Below, piece after piece: positions 34,104 through 35,788 of a DNA stretch of 64,000 nucleotides. The notes under the pieces are model-generated. The model was not told the DNA's origin and did no database searches. It saw only the letters and a list, made by a program, of their open reading frames with translations. The stretch's first letter is position 1, and each line of letters begins with the position of its first letter. This DNA comes from Solibacillus sp. FSL H8-0538 (GTDB lineage: Bacteria; Bacillota; Bacilli; Bacillales_A; Planococcaceae), in NCBI RefSeq assembly GCF_038003525.1, contig NZ_JBBOPI010000001.1, forward strand, positions 549,001 through 613,000, written 5' to 3'. A program made the translations under genes and the position numbers.

Positions 34104-34655
34104 ATGTTAAACGATTACGAGATTAAAAAACATCCACGTAGTGAATTACTGCGTTCAGTATTTAAATTATTTTTTAGTTTACTAGTATTATATAGTGCTA
34201 CCTTATTTGTTCCAGCATTGGTATTAGATGTACAATCGCAGCACGAACGGCAAGCCGAGTCACTGAAAATACGTGTAGTTGCCAATAGCTCATCTGAAAG
34301 TGATCAACAATTTAAACAACTTGTTGTGGAAAATATCCAAGCTTTTGTCAAAAACAACGTAAATACAGTGCAAAATGATAAGATGTTTGAACAACTACAA
34401 ACACATTTACAAGAAAAATTTCCGAACGACAGCATTACCATGAAAACTGGGGATAACTTATTACCACCCAAGTTCCAATTTCATACATTTTACCCTCAAA
34501 ATTTTCACAATTCAGTTATTTTCGTGATAGGTGGAGGGCGCGGTGAAAATTGGTTTTGTTCAGTATTCCCAACGGTTTGTGAACGTTCAGATCAGCAGGA
34601 AAAAAGCAAAACTAAATTTCTTATATACGAATGGATAAAGGAAAAATCGGGCTGA
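34104..34655 (+). CDS. spoIIR: stage II sporulation protein R (SpoIIR)
   Basis: A 183-residue forespore-made signalling protein that triggers SpoIIGA processing of pro-sigma-E in the mother cell. One N-terminal membrane/signal segment (about residues 21-42) is followed by the extracytoplasmic domain with LKIRVVANSSSESDQQFK and the hallmark GGGRGENWFCSVFPTVC near the C-terminus. ATG follows CAAGGGGGAATGAAAC, and that site is buried in a hairpin (34067-34094). Expected to be sigma-F dependent; no clear sigma-F promoter was found in the 45-base gap after prmC. Confidence 0.9.
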   Translation: MLNDYEIKKHPRSELLRSVFKLFFSLLVLYSATLFVPALVLDVQSQHERQAESLKIRVVANSSSESDQQFKQLVVENIQAFVKNNVNTVQNDKMFEQLQTHLQEKFPNDSITMKTGDNLLPPKFQFHTFYPQNFHNSVIFVIGGGRGENWFCSVFPTVCERSDQQEKSKTKFLIYEWIKEKSG

Positions 34656-34658
34656 AAG

Positions 34659-34797
34659 TTATGCACATTTTCTGAAAACTTATACACAATCAATTAGGGA
34701 TTATCAACATAATGTGTATAAAATTGTAAACATCAACAACAGGAAGGGGATATGTTATGAACACAATGCAGTTAACTGTGGATAACGATGTGGATAA
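34659..34797. promoter_or_regulatory. DnaA-box cluster at the ywlC start
   Basis: Five 9-mers match the DnaA box TTATNCACA: TTATGCACA 34659, TTATACACA 34680, and on the opposite strand 34713 (TGTGTATAA), 34777 and 34789 (both TGTGGATAA, the perfect box). One-mismatch sites lie at 34701, 34755 and 34807. The cluster spans the spoIIR-ywlC gap and the first 14 codons of ywlC. Confidence 0.75.
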
Positions 34798-35788
34798 AAT
34801 GGAAAAATATTCACAAGCTGTGGATTTATTGAATAATGGTGAAGTCGTAGCATTCCCAACAGAAACTGTTTATGGATTAGGAGCAGTTGCAACGGATGAC
34901 GCTGCAGTGAAGAAAATTTTTGCTGCAAAAGGGCGCCCATCTGATAATCCTCTTATTGTTCATATTGGAAACATTGAGGAGCTAGCTCTTTATATAGAAG
35001 AAATACCTGAAGTTGCAAAACGATGCATGGATGCTTTTTGGCCAGGACCACTGACGATTGTCATGAAGGCTAAGCAAAACGTGCTAGCACCGAGTGTGAC
35101 AGCAGGTTTACAAACTGTGGGTATGCGTATGCCAGATCATCCGGTAGCGTTGGAATTATTACGCACGCTGAAAAAACCACTTGCTGCACCGAGCGCAAAT
35201 CGAAGTGGTAAGCCAAGTCCGACAAAGGCCGCGCATGTAGCGGAAGATTTAGCTGGTGTTATCCCCTGCATATTAGATGGGGGCTCAACTGGAATTGGCT
35301 TAGAGTCAACAGTGCTTGATGTAACACTTGAGCAACCTGTCATTTTACGTCCTGGTGGGGTGACAAAGGAAATGCTCGAAGCTGTTATTGGTTTTGTACT
35401 AGAGCCAAACTTAGAAGAGCAAAAAATTGAATCTACACCGAAGGCACCAGGTATGAAATACACACACTATGCACCAAATGCCCCTGTATATTTAATTGAG
35501 CAGGAGCCACAAATAATAGCGCAAGCCGTGTTACAACTGCAACAAGAAGGGCACCGGGTAGCATTATTAGCACCAACTCCATTCTGTGATCTAAAGGCAA
35601 ACTTCTTCTTCACATTTGGTGATGAATCAAACGTAGAACAAATGGGAGCAGTACTCTATGATGCACTACGAGCCTGTGATAAAACCGATGCAACAATTAT
35701 TTTAGCGACGTCAACTGAACTGCAAGGTGTAGGCGTAGCTATTATGAACCGTCTTGAAAAAGCAGCCGGTGGAAAATGGTATAAATAA
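34757..35788 (+). CDS. ywlC: threonylcarbamoyl-AMP synthase (Sua5/YwlC type)
   Basis: A 343-residue enzyme that makes threonylcarbamoyl-adenylate from threonine, bicarbonate and ATP for tRNA t6A modification. The YrdC domain (~1-215) has EVVAFPTETVYGLGA, the KGRPSDNPLIVHI motif and PLAAPSANRSGKPSPT. A linker KAPGMKYTHYAPNAPVYL leads to the C-terminal Sua5 domain (~240-343). ATG follows GGAAGGGGATATGTT. The first codons contain two perfect DnaA boxes. Confidence 0.93.
   Translation: MNTMQLTVDNDVDKMEKYSQAVDLLNNGEVVAFPTETVYGLGAVATDDAAVKKIFAAKGRPSDNPLIVHIGNIEELALYIEEIPEVAKRCMDAFWPGPLTIVMKAKQNVLAPSVTAGLQTVGMRMPDHPVALELLRTLKKPLAAPSANRSGKPSPTKAAHVAEDLAGVIPCILDGGSTGIGLESTVLDVTLEQPVILRPGGVTKEMLEAVIGFVLEPNLEEQKIESTPKAPGMKYTHYAPNAPVYLIEQEPQIIAQAVLQLQQEGHRVALLAPTPFCDLKANFFFTFGDESNVEQMGAVLYDALRACDKTDATIILATSTELQGVGVAIMNRLEKAAGGKWYK

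Follow-up and report, generated by a model that had tools for sequence, protein, structure and literature searches.

The window analysed here is a stretch of 64 kb corresponding to bases 549001-613000 of contig C1, in a genome of 3.93 Mb that comprises two contigs, with dnaA at the start of C1. Genes for thymidine kinase, prfA, prmC, a spoIIR-like gene and ywlC follow each other in this order, and ywlC lies approximately 583 kb after dnaA. The ywlC product matches TIGR00057 with 211.9 bits (cut-off 123.2), and the closest named YwlC proteins among the matches listed are those of Lysinibacillus with 71-72% identity. The product of the preceding gene scores 45.3 bits against TIGR02837, which is below the cut-off of 151.9, and the name spoIIR-like therefore leans partly on the position of the gene after prmC. 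Five perfect TTATNCACA boxes and another three with one mismatch are located within 157 bp (34659-34815; Table 1), in a stretch that begins directly 3' of the spoIIR stop codon and extends up to codon 20 of ywlC. The position of box 2 is retained in relatives, box 3 is retained by many of them, some having a perfect version, and box 7 is perfect in many relatives from the window's family. The unnumbered box is the weakest of the set and is present in some relatives only. A promoter scan of 34400-35000 revealed two weak matches, both within ywlC, compared to 2.5 expected, and detected no promoter-like site between the boxes and the ywlC start.

Table 1 Genes and DnaA boxes at the ywlC locus. 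Positions are those of the window; spacings are given relative to the preceding numbered box.
Feature	Position	Strand	Description
spoIIR-like gene	34104..34655	+	Stops 3 bp before box 1; neighbour, judged to lie outside the system
DnaA box 1	34659..34667	+	TTATGCACA, perfect, intergenic
DnaA box 2	34680..34688	+	TTATACACA, perfect, intergenic; box 1 to box 2, 21 bp
DnaA box 3	34701..34709	+	TTATCAACA, one mismatch; box 2 to box 3, 21 bp
DnaA box 4	34713..34721	-	TTATACACA on the minus strand, perfect; box 3 to box 4, 12 bp
Unnumbered box	34755..34763	+	TTATGAACA, one mismatch; overlaps the ywlC start codon
ywlC (tsaC/sua5), L-threonylcarbamoyladenylate synthase	34757..35788	+	ORF of 343 aa; start overlapped by boxes
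DnaA box 5	34777..34785	-	Perfect, within ywlC; codons xxT-GTG-GAT-AAx
DnaA box 6	34789..34797	-	Perfect, within ywlC; box 5 to box 6, 12 bp
DnaA box 7	34807..34815	+	ATATTCACA, one mismatch, within ywlC; box 6 to box 7, 18 bp

The whole window contains eight perfect boxes, of which five fall in this short stretch. When the 64 kb were resampled 500 times with a first-order Markov model, a maximum of two perfect boxes per 157 bp was obtained (11 of 500 resamplings), and among 20,000 resamplings of 34501-34900 the number never exceeded two, a value that was reached in 16. The genome as a whole holds 325 perfect boxes in 3.93 Mb compared to 197 reversed motifs, and for at least five perfect boxes in 149 bp a Poisson estimate at this genome-wide rate gives 2e-12 per stretch. 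Across the window, no enrichment was observed for sites with up to one mismatch (97 observed versus 86.7 expected), so the signal lies in the grouping of perfect boxes. The original prediction had listed five perfect boxes, two of them in the ywlC ORF (located here at 34777 and 34789), together with three one-mismatch boxes, and had described them as far denser than expected; all of these boxes were recovered, and both the resamplings and the Poisson estimate agree with the assessment of their density. With several TTATNCACA boxes in ~200 bp at a distance from oriC, the site has the sequence characteristics of an extra-oriC DnaA-box cluster, and it lies at the start of a ywlC/tsaC orthologue, where an orthologue of the B. 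subtilis ywlC cluster is to be sought.

Extra-oriC DnaA-box clusters as a kind, and the ywlC site of B. subtilis in particular, are already known. According to the available text of PMC4447404, DnaA of B. subtilis binds a region with nine sites upstream of ywlC (region 6), with Kd values of 0.25 uM for ATP-DnaA and 0.45 uM for ADP-DnaA, and 'appears to directly repress' the gene; it is this cluster that the original prediction had rightly named. In the accessible part of PMC12112137, expression of a B. subtilis ywlC-lacZ fusion is described to drop with an approximately twofold rise in DnaA. By analogy, the cluster of the window is in our judgement the counterpart of this DnaA-bound region, as gene and place are the same and the nine sites compare with eight sites with up to one mismatch. 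The immediate upstream gene differs, being ywlB in B. subtilis (PMC4447404) and the spoIIR-like gene in the window. The side of dnaA differs as well: arithmetic with the coordinate in PMC4447404 and a genome of 4.2 Mb places ywlC ~0.43-0.44 Mb before dnaA in B. subtilis, whereas it follows dnaA in the window's genome. Relative to the B. subtilis coordinates (PMC4447404), ywlC and tsaD each lie across dnaA at distances within approximately a factor of two, which is the pattern that inversions about the origin would give.

Conservation was analysed in 119 distinct genomes from three subsets, namely the best 30 YwlC matches of 200 genomes (L031-L060, the own genome among them), 29 of the best 30 TIGR00057 matches of 200 genomes (L062-L090; L061 was removed as a genome duplicate) and 60 further genomes (L091-L150), mainly one for each remaining listed genus. 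Within 340 bp around the ywlC start, at least one perfect box was present in 87 and at least two in 80 of these 119 genomes, compared to two and zero genomes for the reversed motif, and 32 genomes were without any perfect box; these counts refer to a sample that is tilted to good matches and leaves out low-scoring TIGR00057 matches. Near relatives, for which the original prediction had proposed a conservation check, mostly carry the cluster: within the window's own family, at least two perfect boxes are present in 37 of 39 genomes, compared to 43 of 80 genomes in other families. An alignment of 38 loci from the window's family revealed that the boxes and the start region are conserved above the spacers. 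At the family level, 24 of the 41 sampled families have at least one genome with at least two perfect boxes, and 15 have zero perfect boxes at ywlC in every sampled genome. The cluster is thus kept across families, as had been predicted, and reaches further than was guessed.

Among 80 separately collected loci that bear organism titles and may overlap in species with the TIGR00057-derived set, 17 have at least two perfect boxes. Counted from the titles, the cluster is present in 17 of 32 Bacilli and in none of 48 others, the latter comprising Clostridia, Negativicutes, unplaced titles and two archaeal-titled bins, a few of them with short upstream sequence. The Bacilli that carry it comprise, among others, both Lysinibacillus loci, Kurthia gibsonii, Planococcus citreus, Robertmurraya, Cytobacillus, Peribacillus deserti, Virgibacillus halodenitrificans, Brevibacillus, Halalkalibacter, Alkalicoccus and Enterococcus cecorum. 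Fewer than two perfect boxes were found, among others, in Paenibacillus (none in five of five loci), both Pontibacillus loci, Kurthia senegalensis, Virgibacillus indicus, Peribacillus tepidiphilus, Exiguobacterium undae and Apilactobacillus; no perfect box was present at ywlC in the Exiguobacterium locus sampled (L206). The ywlC cluster is common, yet some members of genera in which it occurs have lost it or never had it. The data would be explained most simply by a DnaA complex at ywlC that is old in Bacilli and both represses the gene and ties up DnaA. As a side observation, the locus titled Enterococcus cecorum (L247, Lactobacillales) carries two perfect and four one-mismatch boxes 5' of ywlC, with prmC upstream.

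A functional link of the cluster to spoIIR was rejected. The cluster is located downstream of the spoIIR-like gene, and seven loci with prmC upstream (L068, L119, L195, L197, L199, L232 and L247) have at least two perfect boxes and no spoIIR match before ywlC, as judged by phmmer and a profile built from its matches, which a very divergent spoIIR could escape. They include the titles Planococcus citreus, Kurthia gibsonii and Candidatus Kurthia equi, and prmC ends 164-366 bp before their PTETVYG codons. A further 16 loci with at least two perfect boxes had neither a spoIIR nor a prmC match in the searched stretch and are uninformative. The suggestion in the original prediction that the boxes are linked to spoIIR expression is therefore not upheld.

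The geometry of the boxes was compared in those 97 of the 199 loaded loci that have at least two perfect boxes, with pairs counted at up to one mismatch throughout. In the coding start, boxes are spaced -+ 30 bp in 59 loci, -+ 18 bp in 43 and -- 12 bp in 40, and upstream the spacings are +- 12 bp in 44, +- 33 bp in 38 and ++ 21 bp in 37. This spacing is common to the window's locus and many other families, the loci compared being without B. subtilis sequence. Perfect boxes lie both upstream and in the coding start in 74 loci, only upstream in 15 and only in the coding start in eight. The gap between the two groups differs by family. In many other families the coding boxes are found three codons further upstream of PTETVYG than in the window's family, and in some they lie elsewhere relative to this motif. 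The recurrent spacing, and the fact that the boxes straddle the start, speak for a defined repressing complex.

The window's genome was also scanned for pair patterns of perfect boxes only, with up to 30 bp between them. Such pairs occur at few places, namely at ywlC, near rlmH, near tsaD and in the gap between mnmE and jag; further pairs at the end of C1, beside the ribonuclease P gene and dnaA, represent oriC by inference. One group of perfect boxes (C1:3707097-3707383; L153, L154) is located between rlmH and the gene for a trypsin/PDZ protein, a second (C1:3428180-3428211; L156) directly 3' of tsaD, and two opposed, abutting perfect boxes (C1:3737727-3737744; L157) lie between mnmE and jag. 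Between the tsaD box group and an ABC-transporter gene there is a small ORF on the minus strand that has no Pfam match (L156:807-1193). The neighbours of these clusters include an ABC-transporter ATPase, which by our own reading is of the ABC-F type, the trypsin/PDZ protein, by the same reading of the HtrA type, and Jag. Divergent perfect-box pairs were detected at C1:619808, 2348353 and 2785087. At C1:619808-619840 and 2785087-2785119, an identical near-palindrome of 33 bp with TGTGGATAA at both ends is found, the two copies being oppositely oriented; this resembles a repeat family more than sites for DnaA.

The B. subtilis gene gcp we take to be tsaD, and yydA to be rlmH. Besides region 6, the available text of PMC4447404 names DnaA regions at gcp/ydiF, yydA, trmE/jag, yqeG/sda and ywcI/vpr. 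The first three are of the same motif and kind as the groups near tsaD, rlmH and mnmE-jag, respectively, which are their counterparts in the window's genome, whereas for yqeG/sda no perfect box was found upstream of yqeG (L328). The genes were then compared across the class by the presence of at least two perfect boxes within ~250 bp of each locus, using the best-scoring 30 of ~60 genomes each for tsaD, rlmH, mnmE, yqeG and the control gene pth. By this measure ywlC has the cluster in 26 of 29 (L062-L090) and 27 of 60 loci (L091-L150), tsaD in 19 of 30, rlmH in 16 of 30, mnmE in 11 of 30, yqeG in 4 of 30 and pth in 0 of 30; the reversed motif reached it in 1 of 29 loci of the L062-L090 ywlC set and in none of the remaining sets. 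Sorted by side, and leaving out one tsaD and two rlmH loci that could not be oriented, the boxes are downstream of tsaD in 18 of 29, upstream of rlmH in 14 of 28 and upstream of yqeG in 4 of 30 loci, with zero cases for the reversed motif in all three. In family f16, the two ywlC loci sampled, L138 (G214) and L093 (G369), are without a perfect box. The rlmH loci L278 (G214), L287 (G234) and L284 (G250) of this family have 2-4 perfect boxes upstream, which indicates that clusters are gained or lost singly.

We consider it probable that the ywlC site is a conserved DnaA-binding control region that both represses ywlC and ties up DnaA. DnaA would occupy the upstream boxes (+, 21 bp, +, 12 bp, -) as well as those in the coding start (-, 12 bp, -, 18 bp, +). 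The two groups may perhaps be joined as a single complex that covers the start codon of ywlC and its ribosome-binding site. When free DnaA is abundant, this complex would hold ywlC, which serves tRNA t6A synthesis, at a low level, and the ywlC cluster, as one of few strong extra-oriC clusters, would also sequester DnaA. We infer by analogy that the behaviour described for B. subtilis, namely DnaA binding at ywlC, a drop in ywlC expression with more DnaA and earlier initiation upon loss of six clusters, carries over to the window's organism, and that a single ywlC cluster would take a share in titration. Titration of DnaA, raised as a possibility in the original prediction, is plausible. In favour of this combined reading are the density of the boxes, their conservation and recurrent spacing, the synonymous codons retained at them and the B. 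subtilis findings. Against it speak the 32 genomes that have no perfect box, the loci with perfect boxes on one side of the start only, the lack of a promoter-like site between boxes and start, the clostridial peptide described below and the doubts of reviewers on titration. The E. coli sites datA, DARS1 and DARS2 are similar in that they are DnaA-box clusters outside oriC that tune initiation, but they act with IHF or Fis and alter the nucleotide state of DnaA; B. subtilis is without IHF, as stated in the accessible part of PMC13220808.

The cluster might instead act by titration only, as a passive DnaA sink whose location at ywlC is meaningless for ywlC itself, a reading that we regard as unlikely. 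It would be in line with the cluster that is retained downstream of tsaD, away from the tsaD promoter, since this favours a function beyond one promoter. It would also agree with the shifted initiation timing in B. subtilis, where deletion of six clusters together leads to earlier initiation (as far as reviewed in the available text of PMC5295017 and PMC13220808). The same reviews, however, doubt the weight of such clusters: according to them, no cluster with a significant role has so far been found and excess DnaA does not cause over-initiation, which was absent even upon ~tenfold overproduction (PMC13220808). Moreover, a sink could be placed anywhere and would not need a recurrent spacing, whereas 74 of 97 loci carry perfect boxes before as well as after the start, and for B. 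subtilis an apparent repression of ywlC by DnaA is described (PMC4447404, PMC12112137, in the parts available). The window genome's own tsaD cluster also precedes the small minus-strand ORF, so it may have a promoter role. In 44 of 44 genomes (43 one-contig genomes and the own genome, most genome sizes being rounded), ywlC lies at most 24% of the chromosome length from dnaA, with a median of 524 kb, but in G200, which is without the cluster, it is equally near dnaA, so the place of ywlC alone lends no support to titration.

Conversely, DnaA could tie tRNA modification to the replication state by repression only, with a cluster that has no titration weight. The boxes overlapping the ywlC start, the repression described in B. 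subtilis (PMC4447404, PMC12112137) and the reviewers' doubts on titration (PMC5295017, PMC13220808), each as far as these texts were available, would fit such a role. The retained cluster at the 3' end of tsaD suggests, however, a role beyond the promoter of a neighbouring gene, and we give repression without titration an equally low probability. A region that represses ywlC and also sequesters DnaA is the reading that we prefer.

A further explanation concerns the coding boxes, which might be a by-product of codon use together with an N-terminal peptide that is conserved (V-D-N/K, Y-P/S-Q). These boxes are spelled by xxT-GTG-NAT-AAx (V-D/N-N/K) twice and by xxT-TAT-NCA-CAx (Y-P/S/T/A-Q) once, and their codons were analysed in 82 of the 199 loci, picked on the peptide only. 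Here, GTG encodes the box valine in 76 of 77 and 62 of 66 cases compared to 27% of valines in the remaining gene, T precedes this codon in 68 of 77 and 61 of 66 cases compared to 29% of third positions, and the S/P/T/A codon 3' of the tyrosine ends in A in 59 of 59 cases compared to 37%. With one genome per genus, a filter that 37 of 82 genera pass, the box valines are GTG in 33 of 34 and 27 of 30 cases compared to 662 of 1912 valines in the remaining ywlC, T precedes GTG in 31 of 34 and 29 of 30 cases, and the complete box is spelled in 21 of 27, 11 of 14 and 20 of 24 cases. All of these codon counts, including those with one genome per genus, are uncorrected for the shape of the tree.

Tripeptides elsewhere in ywlC did not provide a clean control, as 13 of 19 V-[DNHY]-[NK] were spelled with box codons (82 one-per-genus loci), which could speak for a by-product. 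The ORFs of the window were therefore added as control, and box spelling was found in 0 of 11 V-[DNHY]-[NK] and 2 of 12 Y-[SPTA]-[QH] tripeptides. Furthermore, at the 12 commonest in-gene positions the stray spellings are concentrated, with 18 of 22 box-spelled cases at +50, +137 and +158 from PTETVYG (six loci each, from different genera), and they may represent further boxes or shared ancestry. L233 and L234 have box-spelled codons among these three sites, yet they are without perfect boxes at the gene start. In Clostridia a related peptide, [IV]D..[NIV][IV]D, is present but is not accompanied by boxes, which fits a by-product in that the peptide match is partly a matter of the protein. The near-fixed GTG and preceding T at the box valines, together with the non-coding boxes, which are conserved too, nevertheless make this explanation very improbable. 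We claim that the coding boxes are probably held by selection on synonymous codons; owing to the clostridial peptide, this claim is limited to codon selection and does not extend to boxes creating the peptide. A functionless chance cluster, for which nothing more than the shortness of the motif could be put forward, is practically ruled out by the conservation, the density in resamplings and the pth control (0 of 30).

Goranov 2005 reportedly may already describe some conservation among Bacillus species. For the depth of conservation, the two-group geometry and the codon constraint, we found no report in the open-licence literature, including the available text of PMC4634966, PMC8203912 and PMC10977104, and such a lack is weak evidence of absence. 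Beyond the single locus, it may be speculated, at long odds, that DnaA governs an ancient regulon of RNA-modification loci (tsaC, tsaD, rlmH and mnmE) and that the ywlC complex is a nucleoprotein switch of fixed geometry. These four genes all act in the modification of tRNA or rRNA, but the shared theme may be coincidence, since rlmH and mnmE lie near oriC and the tsaD cluster is located at the 3' end of its gene. If true, the regulon would couple replication initiation to decoding capacity, and the ywlC switch would be partly written in the codons of the enzyme it controls rather than being a loose sink.

Knowledge of extra-oriC DnaA clusters in Bacillus-type bacteria derives mainly from one species. 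The occurrence of the ywlC site in approximately two dozen families, its recurrent spacing and the codon-level constraint indicate that it must be under selection. The widely retained clusters at ywlC, tsaD and rlmH, set against the seldom retained yqeG/sda cluster, separate a core from lineage-specific additions, and the natural variants of the ywlC site offer a test series for titration, repression of t6A synthesis, or both.
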